Source: Runella sp. CRIBMP
Lineage (GTDB): Bacteria > Bacteroidota > Bacteroidia > Cytophagales > Spirosomataceae
DNA length: 64,000 bases
Reading direction: 5' to 3'
NCBI RefSeq assembly: GCF_009905605.1
Contig: NZ_JAAAKZ010000003.1
Span: forward strand, 744,001 to 808,000
Shown here: positions 1,913 to 22,142 of the stretch, in pieces
Layout: the number at the start of each line of letters is the position of its first letter
How positions within the stretch are numbered: position 1 is the stretch's first letter
Notes under the pieces: model-generated
What the model was told of the DNA's origin: nothing
Seen by the model: only the letters and a program-made list of their open reading frames with translations
The model's database searches: none
Position numbers and translations under genes: made by a program

Positions 1913-3871
1913 TTAGATATCTTCTATCCTGAACAAATGGAACGGCAGAAAATACGGGTCAAGCTCAATGTAATTGTATTCGCCTTTCCACACGTATTTA
2001 GAACCAGTAATCAAGTCATGCACGATAAAATCTTCCCAACCCGCTTTGCCGATTTTTTGGAGTGGAATCTTCACCATATTGGCTCGTCGATTGTAACCGT
2101 CTAAATTGACTACGCACAAAATACGATTGCCGTCGGGGTGGGTTTTGAGATAGGCCAGCAGTTGGTCGTCGTTAATGTCGCAAAAAGTAATGTTGTTGGT
2201 ATACTGCAACGCAGGGTTTTCTTTACGAGCGCGATTGACCAGCGTAATGACATAGGTAAGCTTATTGGTTAGCTCCCAATCCCAATGTTTTATCTCGTAT
2301 TTTTCGGAGTTCCAATACTCTTCTTTGCCTGGAAATGCCTCGTGGACCATGTATTCGAAGGTGGGCCCGAAAATTCCATAGTTGGAAGACAAGGTTGCCG
2401 CCATAAAATAGCGAATCAAGAAATTAGGCTCGTGCCCTTGTTGTAACAACGGTGGGTTAATATCGTGCGTATTAGGCCAAAAATTTGGACGAAAATAATA
2501 TTGTAAGTCGGTTTGGGTCAACTCCGTCATGTATTCAATGAGCTCCTGCTTGGTATTTCGCCAGGTATAATACGTATACGACTGCGAATACCCTCCTTTA
2601 GCGAGTTGTTGCATGACTTTAGGGCGCGTAAATGCCTCCGCCAGAAAAAGCATATCGGGGTATTTCTGCTTGGTTTCGGCAATAATCCATTCCCAAAAGG
2701 CAAATGCTTTGGTATGTGGATTGTCGACCCGAATGATTCTAACGCCCCATTCTGCCCACAAAAATATAATCCGACGAAGTTCTTCCCACAGGCTGGGCCA
2801 GGCTTCCGTTTCGAAATTAATTGGATAAATATCTTGGTATTTTTTGGGCGGATTTTCGGCGTATTGAATGGTGCCATCTGGGCGAATTTTAAACCATTCG
2901 GGATGATTTTTGGCCCATGGATGGTCGGGAGAACATTGGATGGCCAAATCCATCGCAATCTCCATGTCGTGGGCTTTGCAGGCCTTTACCAATGCTTTAA
3001 AGTCTTCGAGTGTGCCGAGTTCGGGGTGAATGGCATCGTGGCCGCCCAATTCTGAACCTATCCCGTAAGGAACGCCAGGCTCACCTGGTTGGCAAACTAC
3101 GTTGTTGTTTTTCCCTTTTCTGAATTGATGGCCAATGGGATGAATAGGGGTTAAGTACAGCACATCAAACCCCATACGCTGGATGCGGGGCAAAAGGTCA
3201 ATCACGTCGTGGAAAGTTCCGTGTTTGCCGGGTTCTTTTGAGGCTGAGCGAGGAAACAAAGAGTACCAAGAAGAGAAGCCTGCTTTGGGTCGGTCTACCC
3301 ATATTTTCAACTCATGGTAGTGCGTAACGTTTTCACGGTCTGGATATTTCGCAATCCACCCCACGAGGGTCTCACTGATGGCCCAAAGTACGGCTTCATC
3401 ATATTGCTGCTCATTTCTAAAAATCTTTATTGTGTCCAGAATAACAACCTTATCTTCGTCGGAGGCTTGCGGTACTATTTTTTCGAGCAAGGTAGCTCCT
3501 CCTAAAAGTTCGCTGTTTACGTGTTGAGCGTCACGAATTTTGAGTTTTATTTCGTGCTCCCACGACGCCAAATTGTCTACCCACGCTTGGATAGTATAGC
3601 TATAAAAGCCTTCTTTTTCTACCACAAATGAGCCGCCCCAACGGTCATTGGTAATAAATCGCATGGGAACTTCGCTCCATTTATCTTCAAGAGCATGTTT
3701 ATAAAGTAGGCGCGCGGCGATTTTATCGTGCCCGTCGCAGTAGATATCAGCTTCGACTTTAATGATTTCTTGGGGCACCGATTTAACAAAAAAGCGCCCA
3801 CCCTCCAATTCGGGAGTAACGCTCTCTACTATTACACGGTTTCTTCCTTGAATATCGGCGAGATTTATCAT
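1913..3871 (-). CDS. glgE: Alpha-1,4-glucan:maltose-1-phosphate maltosyltransferase
   Basis: GlgE transfers maltosyl units from maltose 1-phosphate to alpha-1,4-glucan chains, making glycogen-like polymer in the cytoplasm. The 652-residue length fits the family. The N-terminal beta-sandwich domain (about 1-115, old DUF3416) precedes a GH13_3 amylase barrel. It carries the nucleophile in RVDNPHTK (Asp383) and the general acid in LAEAF (Glu412), then a C-terminal beta domain from about 560. The partners TreS, maltokinase and GlgB are not in this window, so the pathway is dispersed. The gene is flanked by terminators on both sides and is probably transcribed alone. Confidence 0.95.
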   Translation of the reverse strand: MINLADIQGRNRVIVESVTPELEGGRFFVKSVPQEIIKVEADIYCDGHDKIAARLLYKHALEDKWSEVPMRFITNDRWGGSFVVEKEGFYSYTIQAWVDNLASWEHEIKLKIRDAQHVNSELLGGATLLEKIVPQASDEDKVVILDTIKIFRNEQQYDEAVLWAISETLVGWIAKYPDRENVTHYHELKIWVDRPKAGFSSWYSLFPRSASKEPGKHGTFHDVIDLLPRIQRMGFDVLYLTPIHPIGHQFRKGKNNNVVCQPGEPGVPYGIGSELGGHDAIHPELGTLEDFKALVKACKAHDMEIAMDLAIQCSPDHPWAKNHPEWFKIRPDGTIQYAENPPKKYQDIYPINFETEAWPSLWEELRRIIFLWAEWGVRIIRVDNPHTKAFAFWEWIIAETKQKYPDMLFLAEAFTRPKVMQQLAKGGYSQSYTYYTWRNTKQELIEYMTELTQTDLQYYFRPNFWPNTHDINPPLLQQGHEPNFLIRYFMAATLSSNYGIFGPTFEYMVHEAFPGKEEYWNSEKYEIKHWDWELTNKLTYVITLVNRARKENPALQYTNNITFCDINDDQLLAYLKTHPDGNRILCVVNLDGYNRRANMVKIPLQKIGKAGWEDFIVHDLITGSKYVWKGEYNYIELDPYFLPFHLFRIEDI

Positions 3872-7734: not shown

Positions 7735-8934
7735 TTAAATGTGTACAAAAGTATTCAATAGCCAACCAATTGACTCTTTAACAGGTGTATAATAGACAGG
7801 ACTCATCCAGGCATAGTCACCCTTAAAATAATAGGTTGGAAAAAAAAAGGATATAGAAACCGCCGTTATTATAACATTCTTCACAAAAACGGGGCTCTCG
7901 GTCTTGTGAAGCATTTTTAAGGAAATAAACAGGAGCGGGAATATTAAGGTTAAACTTTTGGTTGTGTCAAGAATACTGAACGACACTACCAGTGCTCCTA
8001 AAAAAGTGATAAATGCCAACAAAAACCATTTGAAATCTTTACTTAGGCGACTTTGATAGGCATATACTACAAAAAGGATGAGAAACAGCCAATATCCTTC
8101 AAAGGGGAGCCACATTCCCAATGGTATATGATTAAACTGTTCGTAAAGGCACCAGAAATAATCGGCTCCTGTGCTTCGAGGGTGTAATTTATATGACTCT
8201 GTTCCTTTGATAAAATGGGTAAACAAATAATATCTGACCCCAAAATAAAGGAAGAGATTGACGATATAAACCAACGAGAATGCATTGAATTTCTTAGGAA
8301 TGTACAACTTCCACCATAATAGCAAGATTGGTGAAAATAGGAGCATGCGCTCGTCAGACCAGAATCCTAATAACAAACTCAAAAACAACACAGGGAGGTT
8401 TCTGGTAACAACGACCAATAGTGTGAAAAAATAAGCGAATGGAATCAGCCAAGTAGAAACATCCCAAAAGAAATCCTTCCCTAAAAAGATAAAACTAAAG
8501 CCAAGGCAGAAATAACTCGAAACTAGTTTGTCGGCCGTAATTTCGTACGCTAGCTTAAGTACAAGATAAAAAAAGGTGATGCCAAATATATGTTCAATCA
8601 AGGTGAGTAAACCAACTACCCGTATCTTGTGCGTGGTGTCTAAGATTCCCGCAATCAATACAGGGGTGAGTCTATATTGTTTATTGTGCTCATTGGTCCC
8701 CAATCTTTCTTTATTTTCACCGAATGGGTCTTTTACTTTTTGGTGAATAAAATCCCAAGAATAGTCGTGGTATTTAAGGTTTGAAAAGTAATAGTAATGA
8801 GGAAACGAGAAAAACAACACCAACAAAAAAGAAACAGCCGTAACTCTGATTTTCCAAAATTTACCAACCAATAGGTACGAAGAAACCAGACTGTCGCTTC
8901 GTGCTATCAGAGATGATAAATAGGTTTGAATCAT
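7735..8934 (-). CDS. Polytopic membrane protein (GT-C-like), inserted in the nuo operon
   Basis: This 399-residue protein is not a complex I subunit. It has about 10 hydrophobic helices and a soluble loop near the N-terminus (about 52-95: KYHDYSWDF, KDPFGENKERL), followed by many aromatic residues. The layout resembles GT-C-type glycosyltransferases or lipid-linked-sugar membrane enzymes from surface-glycan loci, but no catalytic motif is certain. The gene is visibly more AT-rich than nuoL and nuoM on either side, which suggests later insertion. It lies in the same orientation, so it could be cotranscribed with nuo. The function is unknown. Confidence 0.75.
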   Translation of the reverse strand: MIQTYLSSLIARSDSLVSSYLLVGKFWKIRVTAVSFLLVLFFSFPHYYYFSNLKYHDYSWDFIHQKVKDPFGENKERLGTNEHNKQYRLTPVLIAGILDTTHKIRVVGLLTLIEHIFGITFFYLVLKLAYEITADKLVSSYFCLGFSFIFLGKDFFWDVSTWLIPFAYFFTLLVVVTRNLPVLFLSLLLGFWSDERMLLFSPILLLWWKLYIPKKFNAFSLVYIVNLFLYFGVRYYLFTHFIKGTESYKLHPRSTGADYFWCLYEQFNHIPLGMWLPFEGYWLFLILFVVYAYQSRLSKDFKWFLLAFITFLGALVVSFSILDTTKSLTLIFPLLFISLKMLHKTESPVFVKNVIITAVSISFFFPTYYFKGDYAWMSPVYYTPVKESIGWLLNTFVHI

Positions 8935-8991: not shown

Positions 8992-10902
8992 TTACTTCAA
9001 CAAAAGATTCCAAGCTAAAATCACCAAAATACCAAGAACCATGGCAAAAACATAAAAGCCTGTTTCTCCCGTTTGTAACAAACGCAGACGCCCCGACAGG
9101 AACTGTACCAAACGGCCCGTGCCGTTTACCACCAAATCAATCAGGAATTCACCGAAGCTATACAGCAGGTCTGATAACTTGCGCATGGGGTTGACAAACA
9201 CAGCTTCGTAGAATTCGTCGACGTAATACTTGTTCTGTAAAACCTTGGGGAAGCCAGTTACGTCTTTGTCGGCGGCAGGAACTACTTTTTTGCTCATAAA
9301 AATATTATAAGCAAACAAAATAGACAAGACCGCTGCCCCTACCGATACGCCCATCAGGATATACTCGGTAGAATGCTCCAAATGGCCTTCAAACAAATCA
9401 GGGTTGACCTGCTTTGACAGATCAAACAGCGGGGCCATAAAATGCGCCAGCGATTCTCCGCCGCCCAATACATGAGGAATGTTTAACAAACCACCTGCGG
9501 CTGACAATACCGCCAGAATAATCAGTGGAATGGTCATCGTTGCGGGTGACTCGTGCAGGTGATGCTTCTGGTCGTGGGTACCACGGAACTCTCCAAAGAA
9601 CGTCACAAACAGCAAACGAAACATGTAAAAAGCGGTCATCATTGAGGTAAACAAGCCAATTCCCCACATGATTTGATTGTGCTCAAATACGTGCGCTAAA
9701 ATTTCGTCTTTTGAGAAAAAACCCGAAAGTGGGAAGATTCCGGAAATAGCCAAAGTGGCAATTAAAAATGTCCAGAACGTGACGGGAAGGTGCTTACGCA
9801 AACCACCCATGTTACGAATGTCTTGCTCGTCAGACATGGCGTGAATCACGCTTCCTGCGCCCAAAAACAAAAGGGCTTTGAAAAATGCGTGCGTCATAAC
9901 GTGGAACATTGCCGAGGTATAAGCGCCTACGCCCAACGCGAGAAACATGTAGCCTAATTGACTAACGGTTGAGTAAGCCAGCACTTTTTTAATATCGTTT
10001 TGGTATAAACCTATAGAGGCTGCCACTACCGCAGTCAACAATCCAATGCCTCCTACCACGCCCAGTGTAGCTGGCGCAAGCGAATACAACACGTTGGAAC
10101 GAATCACCATGTAAATCCCCGCCGTCACCATCGTAGCGGCGTGAATCAGGGCTGATACGGGCGTTGGGCCAGCCATTGCATCAGGCAACCATGTATAAAG
10201 AGGTATTTGGGCTGATTTTCCCATTGCACCTACGAAGAGCAAAGCCGTAATGGTTACAATGATGGTGTCGTTGATGCTAAAACTACCGTTGGCAGCTTTG
10301 GCAAAAACTTCAAGGTATTCTACTGAGCCAAAGGTTTGGATAATCATGAAAATACCCAACAAAAAGCCTAAGTCACCGATGCGGTTCATGATAAAGGCTT
10401 TGCGGGCAGCGTTGTTGTAATTGGTCACTTTGTTCCAAAAACCAATCAATAAATAAGAACAAAGTCCTACTCCTTCCCAACCAATAAACATGATGACGTA
10501 GTTGGAACCCATCACGAGCAATAGCATGAAGAACAAAAATAAGTTGAGGAAGGCAAAAAACTTCCCGAACCCTTCGTCGTGATGCATATAACCCATTGAA
10601 TAGATGTGAATCAATGAACCTACGCCCGTAACGACCATGAGCATCAAAAGCGATAGCTGGTCTATTTGGAAGGCAAAAGGAATGGTGAGCTGGCCAATGG
10701 AAATCCAGTCAAAAAGTTTTACCACCTGTGGTTGACCATCAAAGGCGCTCCACGCTAAAATTGAAATGGCAAACGCGCCGAGCGATGCCGCCGAGCCGAT
10801 AACGCCTGCAAGGCTTTTTGGAACATGACGAAATCCAATCCCATTGATGATAAAACCAATGAGCGGCAAAAGAGGTATTAAAAAAAGTAAGGATGAGTTC
10901 AT
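8992..10902 (-). CDS. nuoL: NADH-quinone oxidoreductase subunit L
   Basis: This is the largest antiporter-like proton-pumping subunit, 636 residues with about 16 helices including the C-terminal lateral-helix region. Hallmarks are GWEGVGLCSYLLIGFW with the key glutamate, GKSAQIPLYTWLPDAMAGPTP with the key lysine, and the conserved VSALIHAATMVTAG. It lies 65 bases downstream of nuoK and upstream of the inserted membrane-protein gene. Confidence 0.96.
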   Translation of the reverse strand: MNSSLLFLIPLLPLIGFIINGIGFRHVPKSLAGVIGSAASLGAFAISILAWSAFDGQPQVVKLFDWISIGQLTIPFAFQIDQLSLLMLMVVTGVGSLIHIYSMGYMHHDEGFGKFFAFLNLFLFFMLLLVMGSNYVIMFIGWEGVGLCSYLLIGFWNKVTNYNNAARKAFIMNRIGDLGFLLGIFMIIQTFGSVEYLEVFAKAANGSFSINDTIIVTITALLFVGAMGKSAQIPLYTWLPDAMAGPTPVSALIHAATMVTAGIYMVIRSNVLYSLAPATLGVVGGIGLLTAVVAASIGLYQNDIKKVLAYSTVSQLGYMFLALGVGAYTSAMFHVMTHAFFKALLFLGAGSVIHAMSDEQDIRNMGGLRKHLPVTFWTFLIATLAISGIFPLSGFFSKDEILAHVFEHNQIMWGIGLFTSMMTAFYMFRLLFVTFFGEFRGTHDQKHHLHESPATMTIPLIILAVLSAAGGLLNIPHVLGGGESLAHFMAPLFDLSKQVNPDLFEGHLEHSTEYILMGVSVGAAVLSILFAYNIFMSKKVVPAADKDVTGFPKVLQNKYYVDEFYEAVFVNPMRKLSDLLYSFGEFLIDLVVNGTGRLVQFLSGRLRLLQTGETGFYVFAMVLGILVILAWNLLLK

Positions 10903-10967: not shown

Positions 10968-11312
10968 TTACCACTTCAACTTGTTCAGGAATCCAATATC
11001 AATAGTACGCGTATTGCGATAAATCATTACGATAATAGCCAACCCTACGGCTACTTCGGCCGCGGCTACCGCCATAATAAAAAAGACAAAAACCTGACCT
11101 ACGGGGTCGGATTTATAGGTCGAAAAAGCAATAAGCAACAGGTTGACGGCATTGAGCATCAATTCGATACTCATGAAAATAATAAGCGCATTACGACGGG
11201 TCAATACACCCACAATACCGATGATAAACAAAGTCGTTGCTAACAGAACGTAGTTTTGTAAAGGGATAGATTGAACAACGTCGGGAATTGACGGGGTAGC
11301 TAATGGGAACAT
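10968..11312 (-). CDS. nuoK: NADH-quinone oxidoreductase subunit K
   Basis: NuoK is a three-helix membrane subunit of complex I. The essential glutamate is seen in [14 protein letters not shown], and a second acidic residue in [12 protein letters not shown]. The protein is 114 residues here, a little longer than the usual ~100 because of an N-terminal extension ([15 protein letters not shown]). A Met further in could also serve as start, but the promoter at 11370-11399 fits the longer form. It is first in this partial nuo operon; nuoA-J are not in the window. Confidence 0.93.
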
Positions 11313-11491: not shown

Positions 11492-12328
11492 TTAAGTGTT
11501 TTTACGCGAAGGGCCCATGATCCAACGTTTGAGTGTTTTTTGTAAATTACTGCCAAGCCACGCATCAAACAACTTGTCCCTTATGCCAGTAGGAGGTACT
11601 TTAGGAGCACTTTCGGTGTTGGCTGACAGCACTAAATGAAAGCTACGGCTGTCTGCCCCACTGTATTTTTTTCCTCCCCGAACGAATTGTGTATTAAAAA
11701 AATCGACAAATAAAGGCAGGTGTTCAAAGCCTAGCTCAGAAAAACGCTGAAGCCACCACTCACGCTGACGAACGGTTTGGTGCAGATTTATGCCGTTTAC
11801 AATATCGTCGACTGTAGCAATACTCATAATCCAAAGACCGTGATTGGCCAAATGTTTTTTAACATGGCGCGCCACGGCCTCTATTTTATCCTCAGAAATA
11901 TGCTCCATCAGCTCCCACGATGTGATCAAATCAAAGGCAATAGGCGTTTTGCTTTCGCCAGTTTGGACAGAAACCGTAAAATCGGCGGTAACATCACAGG
12001 TGAAAAGATTGCCGGGAATAGTAGCCCACTCGGCTCGTTTGAATTTTTTTGAATAATCACTTCCGTCCAATCCAACGGCTAAACAACCATCGTCTAAGCA
12101 ATCTTTTACAAACCCTCCACCTGCACAGCCAATGTCTAATATTTTTAGAGGTGCAGGATAGGAATAGAAAATTTGGTAGATTTTTTGATTGAAACGATAA
12201 TTTTTGCTGTTGTCACGAGCGGTTCCCCAAGGCATCAGGTGGTCGGGAGAGTCAAATGCAATGGGTTTTTGGGCCTCAACGATAATACGGGAAAACTCTG
12301 TAAACTTAAAGGCAGTTGGGCTGGACAT
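11492..12328 (-). CDS. Class I SAM-dependent methyltransferase
   Basis: This 278-residue protein has a Rossmann-type methyltransferase core. Motif I is KILDIGCAGGGFVKDC (about residues 59-74), followed by the acidic loop GLDGSDY. The post-II motif FDLITSWELMEHI and the helix ARHVKKHLANHGLWIMSI also fit the Methyltransf_23/11 group. It has an extra C-terminal ~80 residues. As the last gene of the glycan operon, it probably O-methylates a sugar or lipid-linked glycan; the substrate is inferred only from context. Confidence 0.85.
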   Translation of the reverse strand: MSSPTAFKFTEFSRIIVEAQKPIAFDSPDHLMPWGTARDNSKNYRFNQKIYQIFYSYPAPLKILDIGCAGGGFVKDCLDDGCLAVGLDGSDYSKKFKRAEWATIPGNLFTCDVTADFTVSVQTGESKTPIAFDLITSWELMEHISEDKIEAVARHVKKHLANHGLWIMSIATVDDIVNGINLHQTVRQREWWLQRFSELGFEHLPLFVDFFNTQFVRGGKKYSGADSRSFHLVLSANTESAPKVPPTGIRDKLFDAWLGSNLQKTLKRWIMGPSRKNT

Positions 12329-12393
12329 GGAGTGGAAAATTAGTGAATAAAGTAAAATCAGGCTTGTGGACTTTGGTTGTTAATTCAAAAATG

Positions 12394-13935
12394 TCATTTG
12401 ATACGATTGGAAATTTTGCTGCTAATGAGTTTTATATCATGCACTTTAAGCAAAAGATTGCTCCCAATATATACAAAACTGGCAACCGTAATAAGGAGGA
12501 ACCCCACAAAAAAACTCTTTATTTTATCGTAATCAAATACTTCTCCCCAATAATTATTCAAGCTCCATACTACACCTGTTCCTACCAATAATGCCAATGT
12601 GATTTTAGCGATTTCCCTTAATTCATACAGACCCAAATAAACCCTTTTCCAGTACCAAACGGTTAGGATAGGAACAAGCGACATCAGAAAATTATGAACA
12701 AATACCTGAAGCATAACTCCGTTGAAGCCAAGTGTACGGATGGTTGCGTAGCCGATTAAAGCCGAAATAACGTGTATCACACTCCAATAATAATATAATA
12801 TCTCCGGACGTACGACGCTGACCGCCAATTTACGATAAATCATATAAGGCCCTGACCAAATCATGGAAAGGAAAAAGATACACAACAATTCGTAAACCGC
12901 CGTTACATCATGAGAATTAAACTTAGCGCCTCCCCATAATGTCCAAAGAAGGTATTTTCCACCTGCCCAAAATGGCAACAAAATCATAAATCCGATGAAA
13001 AAGGAGAAATTCAGGTTTTTAGAAACAAAGGCTTTGATAGATTGCCCGTTGTTTTGATTTAGTAGCCGATTGATTTCATTGAAAAAAACGGTGCTGATGG
13101 GCAGCATAAACACACTGGCAACTTTTCCATAAATTATTTCGGCATAACGATAAATGGCAAAACTGCCAGGAGGCAGGAGCGATAGGGCAGCGTTGAAGAG
13201 AAATATATACAGTTGTACACTTACCATATATGTAGAAGTAGCCGATAGTGTACGTACTAGATCTCGCAAGGGGAAATAAGGATTTCGCAGTAGCCATGAA
13301 TGCTGATAACCTATTTGCCGTAAATAATAAATGGTTGTAAAAAACTGAGCTAAAACACTGATAAACAGGCCTAATATTAGGCTCGTTACGTTTTCTGAAG
13401 TTCCCCAGACGACCAAAATTAATATATTGGTAATCAGAGAAATCGTGTTGGTAAACTCTACCTTTCCGTAAATGTTTTCGGCATTGAGCAATCCTTGGAA
13501 CAAATTAGTGGCTATCTGAATGGGCATCAAAAATCCCGTAATGCAATAGATTTGCCAAATTCCCCATTTTGTCTCTTCTGTAAAACCAGGAACTAATAAA
13601 TTGATGATGCCCGTTCCACTTGCGACAAATACCAAAGTCAACAAAAGCGCAATACCTGTCATGTAATTACAGAGTGTGGCAATAATTGACATGGCAGCGT
13701 TCTTTCCAGCTTCTTGTTTGACTCGGTGGTAGCGAGAAACAACGATTTCGATCAACTGTCCTGTATTGACAAAACGCGAAACGGCAGTTCCCAATAATGA
13801 CGCCGCAAAAAATGCTTCGACCTGCGCAGATGTACCAAAGATGTACACCGTCAGCGTCGAAACAGCTACGTTCAGAATGATATTAAGGGTGTTTAGGCTA
13901 AATAAAACACCTATGTTTCGATAGTCAAGCGACAA
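12394..13935 (-). CDS. MurJ/Wzx-like lipid-linked glycan flippase (MVF/MOP superfamily)
   Basis: This 513-residue protein has 13-14 predicted helices. Its N-terminal region (VSTLTVYIFGTSAQVEAFFAAS) resembles the MurJ/MviN branch of the MOP exporter superfamily, to which the peptidoglycan precursor and O-antigen flippases belong. In a glycan operon the likely job is moving a lipid-linked oligosaccharide across the inner membrane. The essential-gene MurJ itself is usually elsewhere in the chromosome, so this is more likely the operon's own flippase. It lies 15 bases downstream of the GT-C-like gene. Confidence 0.8.
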   Translation of the reverse strand: MSLDYRNIGVLFSLNTLNIILNVAVSTLTVYIFGTSAQVEAFFAASLLGTAVSRFVNTGQLIEIVVSRYHRVKQEAGKNAAMSIIATLCNYMTGIALLLTLVFVASGTGIINLLVPGFTEETKWGIWQIYCITGFLMPIQIATNLFQGLLNAENIYGKVEFTNTISLITNILILVVWGTSENVTSLILGLFISVLAQFFTTIYYLRQIGYQHSWLLRNPYFPLRDLVRTLSATSTYMVSVQLYIFLFNAALSLLPPGSFAIYRYAEIIYGKVASVFMLPISTVFFNEINRLLNQNNGQSIKAFVSKNLNFSFFIGFMILLPFWAGGKYLLWTLWGGAKFNSHDVTAVYELLCIFFLSMIWSGPYMIYRKLAVSVVRPEILYYYWSVIHVISALIGYATIRTLGFNGVMLQVFVHNFLMSLVPILTVWYWKRVYLGLYELREIAKITLALLVGTGVVWSLNNYWGEVFDYDKIKSFFVGFLLITVASFVYIGSNLLLKVHDIKLISSKISNRIK

Positions 13936-13950
13936 AGCAAAAGAAACGGT

Positions 13951-15615
13951 TTATGGATTGACAGTAATAATGGAATTTGTATGGTATAATTTAGGCTTAT
14001 CGCCCATTTGTAGCCATTCGATTTGGGCATTTATCATCGAAATATGACAGTCGTATACTTCTGCTTCCAGCCCTTTTTTAAAATAACGCCGCTGTTGCAG
14101 TATCGCAAGCCAATCATTGCGAGTCGATGAAGTAGGAAATACATAACGACGGGAACCATGGCTTAGTACGGCGTAGAAAGCTTCTTTGGAAGAAGAGGGA
14201 AATTGGAAATAAGCTTCTTTAAGCAACCAATAATTTCCACATACAACTTTATCTACTTTTGTTTCTTCGTTGCGTTCACATTGGGGCGTTGGTTTAAACT
14301 TCAGAACGGTAGCGCTTTTGAGCTGTCGCGCTAGATCATACCGCAAAGGTACAACGTACAATCCTGTTTGATGGGCTTTAAGGGTTGTTTCTCCAAAACG
14401 AGGAGTGCCGTCTATGGTATATACATCTAGTTGATTGTGCAAAAAATTATAATAATTGGCTACGGTCATCCATTCAGTAGTAAGCCGTAAGCCAATATCT
14501 CTAAAATAACTCAAACCCGTTATCACTCCGATGACCATCCAAGAAAAAAAAGAAAGCCACCGACTGAGACTGAACGTAATCAGCCGAAAGCACATCAAAA
14601 AACTCAGAGCCATAGCTAAAGAGGAATAATGCCGATAGCGGCCTCCGATGATGATACTCATGCCCTTCTCTGCCCGAAACAATGCCGCAGATAGCGCCGT
14701 CAGGAAAATGAAAACCATTATGGATAGCAGGACTAGTGCTGCGCGGTCGTTATTTTTTATATAATTCCTCAGCATTAAAAAGGTTATGATTACTACTAGG
14801 CAGCCTGCTGATACTGCCATGATTTGACCGCCAAGTCCACCAATGAGTGCTGCATAAGACCCGATAAAAGCAAAAAAATTTAAAGGGACTAATGCCAAAT
14901 TGCTGAATTCGAATGTCCCCGAAACGGGGTGTTGGCTCAAAATATAAAAGTAGCCTAAGCAACTGATTGATCCCGCCAAGAGCCAAGTAAGGTATTGACT
15001 TAAAGGTCGTTGGTGCATAAACAAAATAAAGACCCCAACTGGCCAAATCATCATGCCGCTTCCATTACTGAACTGCGCTAAAATAGCCAATGGAATAGCA
15101 CCGAACCATTGCTTTGGGTTGGCCAATAAAAAGATGGAAAGGGTGACAGGAATTAAAACCCAAATATTGGACCATACAGCCATCGCCCAAAAGGTAGTGG
15201 GCGAGTATTGAGGGTTAAGAAAAGCCAACACCACTAAAAAAAAATACACAGGAGGAAAACGTAGAGATGGCCGAAACAGCGTATAAAGCAATCCCAACTC
15301 CAGAAATGATAAAAAATTGCCCGCCAAAATAATACCACGAAAACTGACGTGCCCAGTCAGTTCATAACTTAACCACCCCGCTATTCTTGTCATGATGATA
15401 ATGTGTTCGCTATGCGGCAGAAACAACGATTTGAATTTAGTCCAAGCGTCGGCTTTTTCGTAGGTTAGCAGGTAGCCTAAAATCGCATCGTAGTCATCAA
15501 TATAGGGAACATCCACCGCGTGGAGGTTTAGATAATAGAAATACCATCCTAAGTAAAGTGCGACCAGCAGGAGGAGCCAATAAAAACCAGTAGAGGAGGA
15601 TTTTTGTAAATACAC
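13951..15615 (-). CDS. Polytopic GT-C-like membrane protein of the glycan operon
   Basis: This 554-residue protein has about 11 hydrophobic helices followed by a soluble C-terminal ~150 residues. After the first helix the lumenal loop carries VDVPYIDDYDAIL, and shortly after comes LFLPHSEHIIIMTRI. This acidic-pair plus EH pattern is seen in uncharacterised membrane proteins of bacterial surface-polysaccharide loci that look like GT-C glycosyltransferases. It would act on the periplasmic side with a lipid-linked donor. The assignment is by topology and motif only, and the substrate is unknown. Confidence 0.7.
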   Translation of the reverse strand: MYLQKSSSTGFYWLLLLVALYLGWYFYYLNLHAVDVPYIDDYDAILGYLLTYEKADAWTKFKSLFLPHSEHIIIMTRIAGWLSYELTGHVSFRGIILAGNFLSFLELGLLYTLFRPSLRFPPVYFFLVVLAFLNPQYSPTTFWAMAVWSNIWVLIPVTLSIFLLANPKQWFGAIPLAILAQFSNGSGMMIWPVGVFILFMHQRPLSQYLTWLLAGSISCLGYFYILSQHPVSGTFEFSNLALVPLNFFAFIGSYAALIGGLGGQIMAVSAGCLVVIITFLMLRNYIKNNDRAALVLLSIMVFIFLTALSAALFRAEKGMSIIIGGRYRHYSSLAMALSFLMCFRLITFSLSRWLSFFSWMVIGVITGLSYFRDIGLRLTTEWMTVANYYNFLHNQLDVYTIDGTPRFGETTLKAHQTGLYVVPLRYDLARQLKSATVLKFKPTPQCERNEETKVDKVVCGNYWLLKEAYFQFPSSSKEAFYAVLSHGSRRYVFPTSSTRNDWLAILQQRRYFKKGLEAEVYDCHISMINAQIEWLQMGDKPKLYHTNSIITVNP

Positions 15616-15642
15616 AAGCGTACTATTACACGTTTTTATGAA

Positions 15643-16116
15643 TTATTGAGCTAAAATCCATTCTGCAAACTCGCGCACGGCCCCGTCGCCGCCTCGGCTT
15701 TGGAGCAATAAAATGTTAGGAATTTTTTTGACGGATGCCCTTGCATTGGCAGGGCAGGCTGGCAAACCTACGGCTTTCAATAACTCCAGACAATTAATAT
15801 CATCTCCAACGTAGGCAACCTCGGACAAGGTAATGCCCATTTCGGCACAGATTTGCTCCGCAACAGCCAATTTTCCCCCATCCCGTTTTCCCTGAAACAA
15901 ATAATCGGCCTTCATCTTTGCCGCACGACGCACCACAATTTGAGTATTTTCGGAAGTAATAATCCCCGTTTTGATGCCCGCATTACGGAGCAGTTCAAAC
16001 GCCATTCCATCGTAAGTATGGAAACGTTTAAATTCATCACCGCTTTCGGTGTAGTACATACTTCCGTCCGTCAATACACCGTCTACGTCGGTCAAAAATA
16101 ATTTAATGTCATTCAT
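15643..16116 (-). CDS. KdsC-like HAD phosphatase (probable nonulosonate 9-phosphate phosphatase)
   Basis: This is a 157-residue cap-less (C0) HAD hydrolase. Motif I, LTDVDGVLTDG, contains the nucleophile Asp10 and acid Asp12; ITSEN is motif II; and VGDDINCLELL is motif IV with the metal-binding aspartates. C0 HADs include Kdo-8-phosphate phosphatase KdsC and the KDN-9-phosphate phosphatase of Bacteroides. Next to a NeuB-type synthase and not KdsA, the second activity is more likely. I start it at 16116; an in-frame ATG at 16152 would overlap the SDR gene and add a non-conserved extension. Confidence 0.85.
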   Translation of the reverse strand: MNDIKLFLTDVDGVLTDGSMYYTESGDEFKRFHTYDGMAFELLRNAGIKTGIITSENTQIVVRRAAKMKADYLFQGKRDGGKLAVAEQICAEMGITLSEVAYVGDDINCLELLKAVGLPACPANARASVKKIPNILLLQSRGGDGAVREFAEWILAQ

Positions 16117-16129
16117 TTTATGTTGTTGA

Positions 16130-16936
16130 TTACCAAGCGGTCCACCCTCCATCTACCATTAGTACTGAACCTGTCATGTACGTAGACTCATCTGAAGCCA
16201 ATAAAGTAAAAGGCCCGCGCAGTTCTTCACGGTTGGCCATGCGTTGCAATGGCGATAGTTTGGCAAAATTGGTTAAGAAAGCTTCGTCGTGGTTATTGAA
16301 AATCCCGTGAGGGACTACGGCGTTGCACCTAATGTTGTTTTTGGCGTAAAAAGTGGCAATGTAACGCGTAAAATTAGGAATAAACGATTTGGAAGCGATG
16401 TAATCAATGGGTTTGTAGTTTTGCGTACCCTGCCCAAAATCGTATAAATCCTGATTGGGAGCCACTACTGAGTAAGTGGAAGCCACGTTGATGATGTTGC
16501 CGTAGCCCTGAGCCAACATCTGGCGGCAAGCGGCTTGGGTCACGATGATAGTGCCCGTTAAGTTTACATCTACCGACCGCCGCAGTAGGTCAAGCGGATA
16601 ATTTTCAAATCGACTTTGATTGACCTTCGACATACCCGTTTTGTCAAACTTGGCGTCAATCGCGGCGTTGTTGACCAAGACGTCAATGGTTCCGAAATGG
16701 GCTACGATTTTGGCGATTCCGTCGGCTACTTGTTGCTCGTTGGTAATGTCCATTTCAACTACGATAAAATCAGCCTCGTCAAAATGAGTATGCAGCCACG
16801 CTATGGTTTCGTAGTCAATCCGAACGTCGGTCCATGCTACTCGTGCACCTTCGTTCATATAGTGTGTGCAGATTTCTTTGCCAATCAGCCCGAAAGCGCC
16901 CGTGAATAAAATGGTTTTCCCCTTTAACTTTTGCAT
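16130..16936 (-). CDS. SDR-family oxidoreductase
   Basis: This 268-residue short-chain dehydrogenase carries the nucleotide-binding TGAFGLIG at 12-19, NNAA after strand 4, the catalytic serine in NVAST and the catalytic pair in YIASK. The C-terminal MVDGGWTAW is typical of classical SDRs. It lies 3 bases after the Gfo/Idh gene and just before the phosphatase, so it very likely belongs to the same sugar pathway. It may oxidise, reduce or epimerise a sugar precursor; SDRs of this kind sit next to CMP-sugar synthetase genes in flagellin glycosylation loci (PtmA type). The substrate is not known. Confidence 0.88.
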   Translation of the reverse strand: MQKLKGKTILFTGAFGLIGKEICTHYMNEGARVAWTDVRIDYETIAWLHTHFDEADFIVVEMDITNEQQVADGIAKIVAHFGTIDVLVNNAAIDAKFDKTGMSKVNQSRFENYPLDLLRRSVDVNLTGTIIVTQAACRQMLAQGYGNIINVASTYSVVAPNQDLYDFGQGTQNYKPIDYIASKSFIPNFTRYIATFYAKNNIRCNAVVPHGIFNNHDEAFLTNFAKLSPLQRMANREELRGPFTLLASDESTYMTGSVLMVDGGWTAW

Positions 16937-16939
16937 CGT

Positions 16940-17905
16940 TTAATTACACATTTTTAGAATTACATCTGACTCCCGCAGGTACTGTTCGGTGAGTGAGGCG
17001 GTAGAAGACAGGGTTGTATTCTTTAAAAAATCAATGGTTTGTTGTCGAAACATTTTATTGCGCTCAAAACGAGGCTCCTCGATTGTTTCAACGCCGTAGA
17101 GCGTTTGAATAATGATTTTATTCTGAAAATAATCGAACGTCACAAAGGCATCATCAAATACCAGTTCATAGGTTCTTTTGGGCACTTTTTGGTAATAATT
17201 CAGTTGCACAGCCCCCGTGACTCCGCTGGGGTATTCCAGCAAAAATGATGCCCCAGATTCTACGTTTACTTCTAATTTGGAGCGATAATTATAGGACCGC
17301 TGCCAACGAAGCGGTAACTCTCCAACCATCCAACTGACAATGTCGAGGTCATGGCTGAGCGTGAGGGCTACGCCGCCGCCCAATTCGCGTTTGGCCGCGT
17401 ACGAATCGCGATAATCTTCCCAAGGGTGCCAATCAGGCAAATATTCTCCCCAGTATGTGCTGAATGACAGTAGATTACCAAAACGTTTGTCGTCAATAAT
17501 GGATTTCAGTTGTAGCATCAAAGGATGATAGCGCAGCATATACGCTACTTGGACCAAGCTGTTGGTTTGGGCCGCCTCTTTCTTCAACTCTTGGATTCCT
17601 TCGGGATGGTTTGCCAGCGGTTTTTCAACCAACACATGAACCCCGCGTTTTACACATTCAACGGCTTGCGCAAGATGTTGCGCTGTTGGCGTACAAATGA
17701 TGGTTGCGTAAGGTTTAATGACCTCAATCTCATGAAAGTCAGTGAAGCAATGAACACTTTCATTCTGTATATTTCTTAACGGTAACATCCGTTGTCGGTA
17801 TACATGAATATTTTGATAACCAAGTGATTGCAGGATTTCAATGTGGCGCTCACCGATAGAGCCAGCGCCAATGACCAAGAGTGGAAGTTGGGTAGAGAGG
17901 CTCAA
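16940..17905 (-). CDS. Gfo/Idh/MocA-family sugar oxidoreductase
   Basis: The 321-residue protein begins with a Rossmann fold (VIGAGSIGERHIEIL) and has the family EKP motif in VLVEKPLANH (about residue 94), whose lysine takes part in catalysis. The second half is the alpha/beta dimerisation and substrate domain. These NAD(P)-dependent enzymes oxidise or reduce sugars, often nucleotide- or phosphate-linked. Its start overlaps the stop of the cytidylyltransferase by 4 bases (ATGA), which shows translational coupling in the nonulosonate-type operon. Confidence 0.88.
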   Translation of the reverse strand: MSLSTQLPLLVIGAGSIGERHIEILQSLGYQNIHVYRQRMLPLRNIQNESVHCFTDFHEIEVIKPYATIICTPTAQHLAQAVECVKRGVHVLVEKPLANHPEGIQELKKEAAQTNSLVQVAYMLRYHPLMLQLKSIIDDKRFGNLLSFSTYWGEYLPDWHPWEDYRDSYAAKRELGGGVALTLSHDLDIVSWMVGELPLRWQRSYNYRSKLEVNVESGASFLLEYPSGVTGAVQLNYYQKVPKRTYELVFDDAFVTFDYFQNKIIIQTLYGVETIEEPRFERNKMFRQQTIDFLKNTTLSSTASLTEQYLRESDVILKMCN

Positions 17906-18654
17906 TCGTTTACTAAGCTATTTTGAAATTTAACACACTCCAATCGCTGCATTACTTCTTCTGCCTTGAGGAAGCTGTTCATGTCATCAATGTCAATGGC
18001 GTAGTCAAAAGGCAAAACGTACGGCAAAATAGGGTAGCCCGACATGGATTTTTTCTCCAAAATAACGGATGGCCGAATCACATCCAACGTGCCTATTTGC
18101 CAATGCACAGGCGGCAGTTTTTGCCGTGGCTCATTATAAGGTTCTGGCAACGTCGGATGTTGCAGTAGCGGACGCATGGAAGCCGTATCTTCGTCATACA
18201 GCCACATTTTATAAGGGGTAATGGGCGCACTCGTAATCATGCGCAGGCTGTCGGCTTCGGGCGTATCAAGGAGGCGCTGAATGGCTTCCTCCATGTGCTG
18301 CACCGTACGGATAGGCGACGTGGGACGCAACTGAACCACCAAATCGGGGGCATAGCCTTCGTTATCCAACAACCATTGTAGGGCGTGGGTAAAGACGTCG
18401 ATATCGGTACTTAAATCTTGGGCAAATTCAACGGGCCGCAAAAACGGGACTTCGGCCCCGTAACGGGCGGCTACGGCGGCGATTTCTTTCGAATCCGTAG
18501 AAATGATGGTTCTAGTAATGGAGGGCGTATCGAGCGCAGCCTTCACACTGTAGGCCACGAGCGGATGCCCCGCCAGCGGAAGCAGGTTTTTGTGGGGAAG
18601 GCCTTTACTACCTCCCCGCGCCTGAATAATTGCCAGTACGTTGGGTCGTGACAA
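17902..18654 (-). CDS. CMP-nonulosonate synthetase (NeuA-like cytidylyltransferase)
   Basis: This enzyme should activate a 2-keto-3-deoxy acid sugar with CTP to give the CMP-linked donor. The 250-residue protein has the nucleotide-binding signature IIQARGGSKGLPHKN (9-23), the sugar-binding RPTSPIR (110-116), and the metal-binding IDIDD near 220-224. All are standard for acylneuraminate cytidylyltransferases. It follows the NeuB-like gene by 20 bases and overlaps the Gfo/Idh gene by 4. Whether the sugar is KDN, sialic, legionaminic or another acid cannot be told from this protein alone. Confidence 0.9.
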   Translation of the reverse strand: MSRPNVLAIIQARGGSKGLPHKNLLPLAGHPLVAYSVKAALDTPSITRTIISTDSKEIAAVAARYGAEVPFLRPVEFAQDLSTDIDVFTHALQWLLDNEGYAPDLVVQLRPTSPIRTVQHMEEAIQRLLDTPEADSLRMITSAPITPYKMWLYDEDTASMRPLLQHPTLPEPYNEPRQKLPPVHWQIGTLDVIRPSVILEKKSMSGYPILPYVLPFDYAIDIDDMNSFLKAEEVMQRLECVKFQNSLVND

Positions 18655-18674
18655 AATATAAAAAAGTTGAATAA

Positions 18675-19568
18675 TTAAACGGTTGTCGTTTTTCGGTATT
18701 TGAGTTTGTTGCGTTGCTCGGCCTCAATATCCAGAATTTCGGTGCTTTTATACGTAAGCGCCTGCTGAATGTGGTGCAAATCACGGACTAATTTTTGTAA
18801 GCCGGGCACTTCCAGTGAGGCAGCGTGGTCGGTGCCTTTCCATGTACGATCTTTGGTGAAATGGCGCTCAATCCAACGAGCTCCTAGCGTATAAGCGGCA
18901 ATATCGGCCGCAATGCCGAGATGGTGCCCCGAAAAACCGATTTCCTTGACGCGATTGCCGTAAACATCGTATAGACGATTGATTTCCAGTAAACAAATGT
19001 CCTTGAAAGGTACGGGGTAGCCAGAGGTGCAGTTGTAGAGCACGAGCCGGGTTTGGGCCTGATTGGTTTCTTCAAAGAAAGCAACGATCTCTTCAATTTC
19101 ACGGAGAGTGGTCATCCCAGATGAAATGTGAATGTCGCCAGCGTAGCCATCACGCAGCAATGTCAACATTTCATAGTTGTTGTTGCAAGCCGACGGAACC
19201 TTGATAAAATCTGGTTTGAGGCCAATGATTTCGTGAGCCGAAGTCATATCCCAGACTGAGGTAGCGTAGCCAATACCGATCGACTCGGCGTAGGTTTTTA
19301 GGTCGGCGTGTTGTTCCCAGGTCAATTCCAAAAATTCGCGGTGGGCACCGTAGGTGTTTCCGTAAGAGTTGTAAGGAGTAGGATGCGGCGAATTATATTG
19401 CTCTTCCGTTAAGAGTTCGCGGGCGTTGCGTTTCTGAAATTTAGCATAATCGGCCCCGCACTCTTTCGATAATTTGATTAACTCCTTCGCAATTCCAAAG
19501 TCGCCCATGTGGTTACAACCGATTTCGGAAATAACGAGGGGTTTACGATAGTCAAAACTGAATCCCAT
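18675..19568 (-). CDS. NeuB-family nonulosonate synthase without SAF domain
   Basis: NeuB-type enzymes condense phosphoenolpyruvate with a six-carbon sugar to make nine-carbon acids. This 297-residue protein holds the complete TIM barrel: ISEIGCNHMGD (Glu15), YAKFQK (Lys43, Gln45), FIKVPSA (Lys123), GFSGHH (metal His215), WIERHFT (His236) and GTDHAASLE. It ends right after the barrel, where NeuB, SpsE and LegI normally continue into an antifreeze-like SAF domain of ~60 residues. The missing domain could mean a phosphorylated substrate, as in KDN-9-phosphate synthesis. It is the first gene of the operon, with a TACCTTTG box at 19618-19625. Confidence 0.88.
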   Translation of the reverse strand: MGFSFDYRKPLVISEIGCNHMGDFGIAKELIKLSKECGADYAKFQKRNARELLTEEQYNSPHPTPYNSYGNTYGAHREFLELTWEQHADLKTYAESIGIGYATSVWDMTSAHEIIGLKPDFIKVPSACNNNYEMLTLLRDGYAGDIHISSGMTTLREIEEIVAFFEETNQAQTRLVLYNCTSGYPVPFKDICLLEINRLYDVYGNRVKEIGFSGHHLGIAADIAAYTLGARWIERHFTKDRTWKGTDHAASLEVPGLQKLVRDLHHIQQALTYKSTEILDIEAEQRNKLKYRKTTTV

Positions 19569-19912
19569 GGATTATGTCGTTACTTGTTAAGTTCTTCTGT
19601 TAGACTTAAATTCTTTACAAAGGTAATGGTTGGTTTGTAGTTTTGGTCTTTTGCTGTTTTTCTATGTCATTAATTCCACGCTCACGCTTACCTTTGTAAC
19701 AAACAATCAGGATAACCAGAGAATGTCGTTGCTTTTTACAGAAGAAAGCCAACGAGCCAAGAAACTTTTTATTCTGATTTGAGTTTTAAAAATTGTGTTG
19801 AGAAAGAATTGTAAAACTAAAGGCTCCGCCTTTGCGTAAGTAGAATAAAGGGAGTGCTTATTCTCAAAACGGCAAATTTAATCAGCTTATTTCTTTTGTA
19901 TCTATCAAAAAA
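19569..19912. other. 344-base divergent intergenic region neuB-like/hemH
   Basis: The region holds the divergent promoter pair noted separately, a small hairpin (AAAGGC at 19819-19824, GCCTTT at 19828-19833) and an AT-rich leader to hemH. A 19-codon open frame with ATG at 19723 begins about 20 bases after the predicted hemH-side transcription start, but nothing supports its translation. I see no other gene, tRNA or recognised riboswitch. Confidence 0.6.
19615..19699. promoter_or_regulatory. Mirror-image divergent -7 boxes
   Basis: TTACAAAGGTAA at 19615-19626 and TTACCTTTGTAA at 19688-19699 form a perfect 12-base inverted repeat. Each copy contains TACCTTTG, an exact TAnnTTTG box, pointing outward. 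The left one would start the glycan operon about 43 bases before its first ATG. The right one would start a ~210-base leader before hemH. I see no clear TTG at -33 for either. Confidence 0.5.
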
Positions 19913-20978: not shown

Positions 20979-22073
20979 TTATTCTTTTATAAATTTACCA
21001 GTAACTATTTTGTCGGCTATCGTTCTGATAAGATAAGTTCCTTGCGGCAGGTTCCCTACATTAAAATCGTGGATGTGCGTCAGAGACTGTTCGGGTTTCG
21101 GATATTCGTCCACGATTTTTCCTTTTACATCAATAAGTTGAAATAAGACTTTAACCGGATTAGTTGCGGAATAAGAAACCTTCACTCTGTTTTGTGCGGG
21201 AGAAGGAAAAATTTGCAAAAAATCTTTAGGCGCAGATTCTATACTTGTAATTACTCCATTACCCGGATATTCAAAAGGCGGAATGATGACTGGGTCACCT
21301 CCTTGGTCGATTACCTGTAATGTCACTTCCCGTTGGGTTTCACTGATGCGTACGCCATCACGCCATTCTTCCACAATAAGAGCATACGCGTAGTTGCCCA
21401 CTTGCACAGGTGCATTCCATGTAAGCTCACCCGTTTGTGAATTGATTTGAAAGACACCTTCGCGGGTGACTTCATTTGGATACCGGTAATCAGCAATATC
21501 TTTAACAGTACAAGTGCCTGGCTGGCTTTGTTTGCTGACTTCTAAACGATAAACTAAGCTATCTCCTTCTGCATCAACGGCATTCACGTTATTCCTAAAT
21601 ACTTGTTTTGAATAAGCGGTTTGGGTTCCCACTATGGAATTCAGCACAGGAGTAGCGTTTATAAGGTTCGTTGCAAATGTAGTTTGGATATAAAAAGGGG
21701 TATTAACGGAATTGAAATTGGCGAGGCCACCATTCCGATTTTCGATGGCTACCGAAACCGTAAATGTACCAGGTGCTGCGTAGGTATATTGAGTTATGTA
21801 GGTATTTAACGATACTTCTGGTGATACTTTTACTCTTGACTCACGAGTAGCCGTAAGGGTTTGTTTTCCTTCTCCTACACAAACGCTAATACTGTTCTGG
21901 CCGTCATTGGCAAAACTTCCCGATACTTCATCACAATAAAGCAATACCCTGATTTCATACGTTAGCCCTTGAGTTGTGAGGCGTCGGGTGCGGATCTCAC
22001 CGCCGAGCAAATGCGAAGCATACGCTGAGTGAAGCAGGCTGAATACACAGGCGAAAGTAAAGAATTTTTTCAT
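20979..22073 (-). CDS. Secreted protein with type IX sorting domain
   Basis: A signal peptide (MKKFFTFACVFSLLHSAYA) is followed by a beta-rich body containing cadherin/PKD-like stretches such as NAVDAEGDSLVYRLE and FQINSQTGELTWNAP. The last ~80 residues, from ILQIFPSPAQNRVKV-like (LQIFPSPAQNRVKVSY) to GTYLIRTIADKIVTGKFIKE, are a type A T9SS C-terminal sorting domain. The protein should cross the outer membrane and be attached or released. I start it at 22073 (364 residues); an ATG 8 codons earlier would precede the signal peptide with a poor N-region. Confidence 0.88.
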   Translation of the reverse strand: MKKFFTFACVFSLLHSAYASHLLGGEIRTRRLTTQGLTYEIRVLLYCDEVSGSFANDGQNSISVCVGEGKQTLTATRESRVKVSPEVSLNTYITQYTYAAPGTFTVSVAIENRNGGLANFNSVNTPFYIQTTFATNLINATPVLNSIVGTQTAYSKQVFRNNVNAVDAEGDSLVYRLEVSKQSQPGTCTVKDIADYRYPNEVTREGVFQINSQTGELTWNAPVQVGNYAYALIVEEWRDGVRISETQREVTLQVIDQGGDPVIIPPFEYPGNGVITSIESAPKDFLQIFPSPAQNRVKVSYSATNPVKVLFQLIDVKGKIVDEYPKPEQSLTHIHDFNVGNLPQGTYLIRTIADKIVTGKFIKE

Positions 22074-22142
22074 GGTGCAGTCGAGTAGTATTATCACGTA
22101 AACGACTGACCATCAAAAGTTATTATACGATATTGAACGGTT

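Follow-up and report, generated by a model that had tools for sequence, protein, structure and literature searches.

Which sugar acid is made by a bacterial gene cluster that holds a synthase and an activating enzyme for nonulosonic acids, and none of the enzymes that supply their amino-sugar precursors? The question is raised by a stretch of 64,000 nucleotides from the genome of Runella sp. CRIBMP (contig NZ_JAAAKZ010000003.1; hereafter the window), in which eight open reading frames (ORFs), all on the minus strand, span positions 11492-19568. A sequence-only reading of the window had described them as an operon for a surface glycan. Profile scores of Pfam and NCBIfam, set against the cut-offs of the models, upheld its gene list, gene order and close spacing, none of the seven junctions overlapping by more than 23 bases or leaving more than 65 bases open; as it had claimed, no NeuC, LegB or PseB-type gene was found among the eight by Pfam. 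From the gene content, the loss of a domain in the synthase, its conserved catalytic residues, the type of the phosphatase and the linkage of these genes across genomes, we conclude, with rather more confidence than doubt, that the operon makes and uses a nonulosonic acid activated with cytidine monophosphate (CMP) by a phosphate route, most likely 2-keto-3-deoxynononic acid (Kdn) or one of its derivatives.

The synthase belongs to the NeuB family according to Pfam (PF03102, 224.7 versus a cut-off of 22.1 bits) and falls under the equivalog cut-offs of both NeuB (TIGR03569, 188.9 versus 399.7) and the pseudaminic acid synthase PseI (TIGR03586, 129.3 versus 340.3). The C-terminal antifreeze-like (SAF) domain is absent, the chain stopping where it would begin. 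A truncated or frameshifted SAF domain can be ruled out, since all 110 proteins collected from its clade, equally devoid of SAF, have C-termini that fall between -6 and +7 residues from that of the window protein, and the next gene lies only 20 bases on. The predicted structure (pLDDT 89.8) finds its best match in the Protein Data Bank (PDB) in 1xuu, the NeuB of Neisseria meningitidis. Thirteen positions of the latter were mapped, namely 11 from the list of 13 given in PMC6795526, together with K53 and H236. Ten are identical in the window and three differ (T110 to S104, F112 to W106, N184 to S182), while N. meningitidis F288 and R314 fall outside the aligned part. Twelve of the window's thirteen mapped residues are invariant over 21 aligned clade members, and the remaining one, N67, is kept in 20.

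By its sequence, the window synthase is a member of a tight clade of SAF-less NeuB proteins. Copies scoring 488-688 bits were found in 20 of 59 relatives, the source genome included, together with one additional fragment; the next NeuB matches in these relatives reach at most 150 bits. A similar gap separates the eight genomes with a clade NeuB at 363 bits or more from the following match at 156 in a class-wide draw of 295 genomes. Scanning named genomes gave at least 592 pattern matches, 567 of them encoding relatives, and the best 80 of these loci cover ten phyla, with 63 Bacteroidota, nine Campylobacterota and one representative each of eight further phyla, several of the latter being metagenome bins in which mis-binning is possible. 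Ten of the 99 plasmid records with any match also carry a clade NeuB (55-59% identity), named 'N-acetylneuraminate synthase family' or 'sialic acid synthase' where annotated. We take these ten to be rhizobia, Maritalea and three marine records of the Rhodobacterales type.

In a tree of 98 rows, all 48 clade rows (the window protein and 47 of the 110 clade proteins) stand on one side of a branch with a support of 100; 12 duplicate loci and one protein of 586 residues were left out. A second group of SAF-less NeuBs, about 31-36% identical and found in Bacteroidia with neighbours of its own, often in the order reductase, phosphatase and NeuB (L085-L090, L092-L098), forms its own branch, again with a support of 100. 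A third group, with one further row, gathers the NeuBs that accompany phosphatases resembling the Kdn-9-phosphate phosphatase of Bacteroides thetaiotaomicron (B. theta). Such phosphatases, 56-72% identical to the B. theta enzyme, occur in 15 of 395 genomes of the class, and in each of the 13 loci retrieved, a full-length NeuB of 344-355 residues that keeps the SAF domain is adjacent or close by. These NeuBs, among which the synthase of B. theta itself does not figure, are 30-33% identical to that of the window. Tree and SAF domain thus reject the idea that the window NeuB is of the type found beside B. theta-like phosphatases. This tree and the phosphatase tree below come from quick searches with long reference branches, which leaves the deep placements unsure, and some genomes are counted twice in the tree and phosphatase figures (L063 and L099, or L065 and L100, for instance).

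The phosphatase, of the C0 type and matched by Pfam families of haloacid dehalogenases (HAD), brings the pathway closer to Kdn. It passes the equivalog cut-off for Kdn-9-phosphate phosphatases at the border (NF058599, 181.9 versus 180 bits), remains under that of the Kdo enzyme KdsC (NF007019, 119.6 versus 208), and has the B. theta enzyme (3e81) as its best PDB match; in the alignment, Met1 of that enzyme falls on the internal Met13, probably the true start of translation. Glu56 and Lys67 of the B. theta enzyme, which we presume to be determinants of its specificity, are kept in the window, where Escherichia coli KdsC has Arg and Thr; both positions are altered in two other PDB sequences of the B. 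theta enzyme, 4hgq and 4hgr. The pair is found in all 13 B. theta-type HADs and in 86 of 87 HADs from loci of the SAF-less clade. The sole deviant (L109, 4513-5058) is a second HAD of its locus, not the NeuB partner, and groups with E. coli KdsC (support 93). In a tree of 59 of the 114 HAD sequences, the window enzyme groups away from E. coli KdsC, so that the branching with Kdo enzymes by which the sequence-only reading would have fallen was not seen for the HAD, in trees whose references include no verified legionaminate enzyme, and its proposal of a phosphatase suited to Kdn-9-phosphate was supported. Among 13 genomes of the same genus, a HAD over the KdsC-family cut-off occurs in exactly the ten with an intact NeuB, and KdsA in all 13. 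The HAD therefore tracks NeuB rather than KdsA, and serves the former.

The same 13 genomes delimit the core of the system, which from gene content is NeuB, the cytidylyltransferase and the HAD resembling Kdn-9-phosphate phosphatase. The Gfo/Idh oxidoreductase and the short-chain dehydrogenase/reductase (SDR) occur together in five genomes, all among the ten with an intact NeuB, and neither has a match in the other eight (at E 1e-20 and E 1e-50, respectively). Five genomes (G001, G003, G004, G007 and G011) keep the core genes without the redox pair, which is therefore accessory. The cytidylyltransferase has a CMP-N-acetylneuraminate synthetase (6ifd) as its best PDB match, and the SDR remains under the equivalog cut-offs of NF006619 (169 versus 255) and of the PtmA model (122.7 versus 350). 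The operon is no chance assembly, as clusters related to it are found again in other genomes. Of the best 80 loci from named genomes, 78 have a called NeuB ORF; a HAD lies within six ORFs of it in 61, and the cytidylyltransferase and HAD appear fused in 48 on the basis of length and similarity, two of these fusions having been checked with Pfam. Of the loci that deviate from this order, four in Dyadobacter (L126, L131, L140, L143) run NeuB, cytidylyltransferase, Gfo/Idh and SDR, followed in L126 by an ABC-2 exporter, and show no HAD over a span of about 9 kb.

What, then, does the synthase condense? In nine of the 80 loci (eight Campylobacterota and one Gracilibacteria), a gene combining CBS and mannose-6-phosphate isomerase (PF01050) domains stands directly upstream of NeuB, overlapping it or at most 25 bases away (blastp, 52-100% identity). 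Four were checked with Pfam (L124:8250-8999, L142:1171-1929, L155:8258-9001, L166:8246-9004) and five rest on blastp alone, one of them cut by a contig end. None was found in the 13 B. theta-type loci. Such a gene before NeuB in relatives is a pointer to mannose-6-phosphate and hence to Kdn, and the CBS part suggests a nucleotide control of Kdn supply. Genes for amino-sugar precursors are scarce within 5 kb of the clade NeuBs: blastp detected no gene like UDP-N-acetylglucosamine 2-epimerase (E 1e-5) and no PseB-like gene (E 1e-15) in 78 loci, and a PseC-like gene in two. The SAF domain itself bears on the question, as its Arg314 helps to position the N-acetyl group of N-acetylmannosamine (ManNAc) in N. 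meningitidis NeuB, an enzyme described as refusing mannose, whereas the human one takes mannose-6-phosphate (PMC6795526). The absence of SAF and Arg314 therefore fits a substrate without N-acetyl group, such as mannose-6-phosphate. The clade also offers a natural test of SAF function, the arginine that places the N-acetyl group being gone.

Several observations weigh against Kdn. The HAD clears its model by 1.9 bits only, and HADs of relatives score below the same cut-off (179.6, 173.9, 155.8, 102.6 and 103.6). Glu56 and Lys67 also occur in the second short-NeuB group, in all 11 of its HADs, and so may mark 9-phosphate nonulosonate phosphatases generally, not those of Kdn alone. No HAD was found within six ORFs of NeuB in 17 of the 78 loci, seven of which end at most 1.5 kb downstream; six of the 17 hold the cytidylyltransferase, Gfo/Idh and SDR without HAD, namely L105, where the contig stops after 2.5 kb, L114 and the four of Dyadobacter. 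Among 25 loci retrieved by genome search, three (L068, L071 and L077) have neither cytidylyltransferase nor HAD by blastp. The isomerase-domain link is confined to Campylobacterota and one Gracilibacteria, with no case in 63 Bacteroidota loci. At the loose threshold of E 1e-5, a PseB-like gene lies within 5 kb in five of the 78 loci. The source genome yielded no type I mannose-6-phosphate isomerase (PF20511), other types not having been searched. Loss of SAF is not required for Kdn, because the B. theta-type loci keep the domain. Finally, we found no characterised enzyme in the SAF-less clade, and the matches listed in our literature search include no SAF-less Kdn synthase, nor any Kdn synthase of Bacteroidota besides that of B. 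theta. The suggestion of a Kdn-like or otherwise unusual acid in the sequence-only reading is thus favoured by the HAD type and by the isomerase-domain genes of relatives, and weakened by a NeuB that is not of the B. theta-type partner group.

The alternative that survives best concerns the redox pair. Gfo/Idh and SDR could act before condensation and supply another hexose-6-phosphate (an epimer, a keto or a deoxy sugar), the acid of this strain then being a nonulosonate other than Kdn and only the relatives devoid of the pair making Kdn. Both genes are present or absent together in all 13 same-genus genomes and sit between core genes; in addition, SDRs 32-42% identical adjoin the other short-NeuB group in nine loci, seven of which also have a HAD. 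We nonetheless regard this as unlikely, though worth serious attention, for within the genus a NeuB accompanied by the pair and one that lacks it share 88-89% identity, and the active site is nearly invariant across the clade, so that a switch of substrate would leave no visible mark.

Still less probable is a product of the N-acetylneuraminate (Neu5Ac) type, made by a NeuB that uses ManNAc-6-phosphate like the animal enzyme. HAD residues common to all groups need not separate Neu5Ac-9-phosphate from Kdn-9-phosphate, and NeuB is the closest NCBIfam model of the window synthase, though far under its cut-off. Against it stand the missing Arg314, the isomerase-domain genes beside NeuB in relatives and the lack of epimerase-like genes near the 78 clade loci; in the source genome no NeuC exceeds the cut-off, three 2-epimerases remaining far under it (best 91.5 versus 235.9; NanE was not searched). 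That the cluster serves Kdo (3-deoxy-D-manno-octulosonic acid) or a variant for lipopolysaccharide is hardly credible and was rejected, for although its HAD is the only one over the KdsC-family cut-off in the source genome, KdsA persists in the three same-genus genomes without such a HAD, the HAD has neither the residues nor the tree position of E. coli KdsC, and the synthase itself is a NeuB-family enzyme.

With Kdn as the favoured product, the pathway can be sketched. NeuB would condense phosphoenolpyruvate (PEP) with a hexose-6-phosphate, most likely mannose-6-phosphate, into Kdn-9-phosphate; the HAD would remove the phosphate and the cytidylyltransferase convert Kdn to CMP-Kdn. Gfo/Idh and SDR would form an optional redox module, probably inverting or altering one carbon, either ahead of condensation, on the hexose phosphate, or on the acid once it is formed. 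Given this module, the final sugar of the window strain is perhaps a Kdn derivative, which the methyltransferase may cap, while the GT-C enzyme and the MurJ-family flippase would assemble and export a lipid-linked glycan. The transferase using CMP-Kdn is probably encoded elsewhere. A broader proposal, that the large SAF-less family, spread over ten phyla and frequently partnered by a cytidylyltransferase-HAD fusion, makes Kdn directly from central metabolism, and that in Runella and some of its relatives the redox pair converts it into an epimer or keto acid so far undescribed and missing from every list of natural nonulosonic acids, is for now rather doubtful. If the clade does make Kdn, this acid would be common among environmental Bacteroidota and Campylobacterota as well as in some alphaproteobacteria, and same-genus genomes in which the pair was found or not found would provide a ready comparison for the discovery of a new sugar.

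Formation, activation, transfer and export had all been read into the operon. The transfer step is the one that did not become clear, as Pfam gave no sialyltransferase match among the eight proteins. For the 554-residue membrane protein, Pfam gave nothing at a threshold of 0.01 and NCBIfam no family, and its predicted structure (pLDDT 85.2) gave the GT-C fold that had been anticipated. Foldseek returned no match at E 0.001 or better; VIA-align, run on the Foldseek candidates, gave Z 17.5 to STT3 and 16.2 to ArnT at 9% identity, where the typical best Z for helical models is about 14. Its top 29 rows (Z 9.5-17.5) are oligosaccharyl-, mannosyl-, arabinosyl- and ArnT-type enzymes and a GPI-transamidase subunit. 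D40 and D41 are invariant over 15 aligned sequences. As the donors of GT-C enzymes are polyprenyl-phosphate-linked sugars, nothing clearly marks the protein as a CMP-sugar transferase, and a separate one is expected. Just ahead of NeuB, ten loci encode a protein of about 290 residues that belongs to a single similarity cluster. It is a candidate on account of its position and of a weak likeness to MptE (PF01973, cut-off 34.6) in the two checked, L117:8132-9001 with 24.7 and L133:3405-4277 with 24.1 bits; this domain is known from Maf flagellin glycosyltransferases. In Runella limosa, the GT-C and flippase genes flank a gene with a weak likeness to GT17 (25.7 bits against a cut-off of 26), and a comparable one (26.6 bits) comes after NeuB in L068. 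The announced MurJ/Wzx-like flippase holds as a MurJ-family protein by Pfam, and misses the MurJ equivalog cut-off by far (TIGR01695, 87.9 versus 235.6).

Table 1. Features of the operon and its borders, by position in the window
Feature	Length (aa)	Position	Strand	Basis
SAF-less NeuB-family synthase, predicted Kdn-9-phosphate synthase	297	18675..19568	minus	PF03102, 224.7 bits
CMP-ulosonate synthetase (cytidylyltransferase)	250	17902..18654	minus	PF02348 (CTP_transf_3), 81.6 bits
Gfo/Idh/MocA oxidoreductase, accessory	321	16940..17905	minus	PF01408 (GFO_IDH_MocA), 67.7 bits
SDR oxidoreductase, PRK09186/PtmA-like, accessory	268	16130..16936	minus	PF13561 (adh_short_C2), 146.1 bits
C0-type HAD phosphatase, predicted Kdn-9-phosphate phosphatase	169	15643..16152	minus	NF058599
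GT-C fold membrane glycosyltransferase, Asp40-Asp41 conserved	554	13951..15615	minus	predicted structure
MurJ-family flippase	513	12394..13935	minus	PF03023, 102.5 bits
SAM-dependent methyltransferase	278	11492..12328	minus	PF13489 (Methyltransf_23), 45.9 bits
Complex I chain 4L protein		10968-11312	minus	
Complex I chain-5-type protein		8992-10902	minus	
Possible promoter -7 element TACCTTTG		19618..19625	minus	read directly; 49 bases ahead of NeuB start

The operon lies in a genome of 7.13 Mb (55 contigs) with a single NeuB match at E 0.001. Its position next to complex I genes, as first described, was confirmed: membrane-subunit genes follow downstream on the same strand, among them two further Proton_antipo_M proteins, and a 399-residue ORF amid them (7735-8934) gave no match in a Pfam search. 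Beyond these genes lies a GlgE-type maltosyltransferase (1913-3871). Upstream, a divergently oriented ferrochelatase gene adjoins that of a protein bearing a sorting tail for type IX secretion (20979-22097, PF18962). The sequence TACCTTTG ahead of NeuB is a candidate promoter element that may correspond to the TAnnTTTG motif of Bacteroidetes.

Few bacteria have been reported as Kdn makers (PMC9000132, PMC7845648), and the main text of PMC7725333 makes no mention of the acid. Sinorhizobium fredii SVQ293 is listed as one that has Kdn glycoconjugates (PMC7845648). A clade NeuB occurs in two other S. fredii strains, NXT3 and CCBAU 25509, whose records are unannotated. Its neighbours in NXT3 resemble the capsule, cytidylyltransferase-HAD and DUF6716 genes of S. 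meliloti ml28, in which a gene annotated as alpha-2,3-sialyltransferase lies nearby; the phosphatase domains of these rhizobial loci reach only 102.6 and 103.6 on the Kdn-9-phosphate phosphatase model. Other S. fredii strains are described as making pseudaminic acid, Kdo or other K-antigens (PMC4881576), which also counts against Kdn. Because K-antigens differ by strain, the link is suggestive, a pointer and not a proof.

Short NeuBs are known from other settings. The NeuB of Leptospira (6ncs), with 290 residues, equally has no room for SAF, but it matches weakly (72.4 bits) and sits outside the clade, where its branch is long. The flagellin-modification genes sfmABCDE of Shewanella oneidensis include a 290-residue NeuB-domain protein and an SDR-like reductase; they differ, as described in PMC3765264, in having no cytidylyltransferase or HAD gene among the five, the others encoding a TPP enzyme, a methyltransferase and an ATP-grasp protein. 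Serratia marcescens KL1 and KL2 carry Kdn in a surface polysaccharide, the capsule, and sialic acid is lost with neuB, whereas the NeuB concerned, encoded by an ORF of about 2.2 kb, has a sugar-phosphate isomerase/epimerase domain in addition (PMC9000132).

Closest in logic are two systems that form Kdn through its 9-phosphate. In Prymnesium parvum, likened here by description only, mannose-6-phosphate and PEP give Kdn-9-phosphate, which is then dephosphorylated; this organism is a eukaryote, and the account in PMC6200933 reports no clear phosphatase homologue. Beside B. theta-type NeuBs, three loci (L196:4040-5713, L200:10051-11811 and L201:2638-4302) encode a NeuB-like protein of 554-586 residues, perhaps a fusion. 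The Kdn pathway of B. theta (PMC6200933), in which the phosphatase (Q8A712, PDB 3e81) is joined by a synthase and a CMP-Kdn synthetase, follows the same three-step logic as that proposed for the window, and the phosphatases of both belong to the same subfamily, sharing Glu56 and Lys67.

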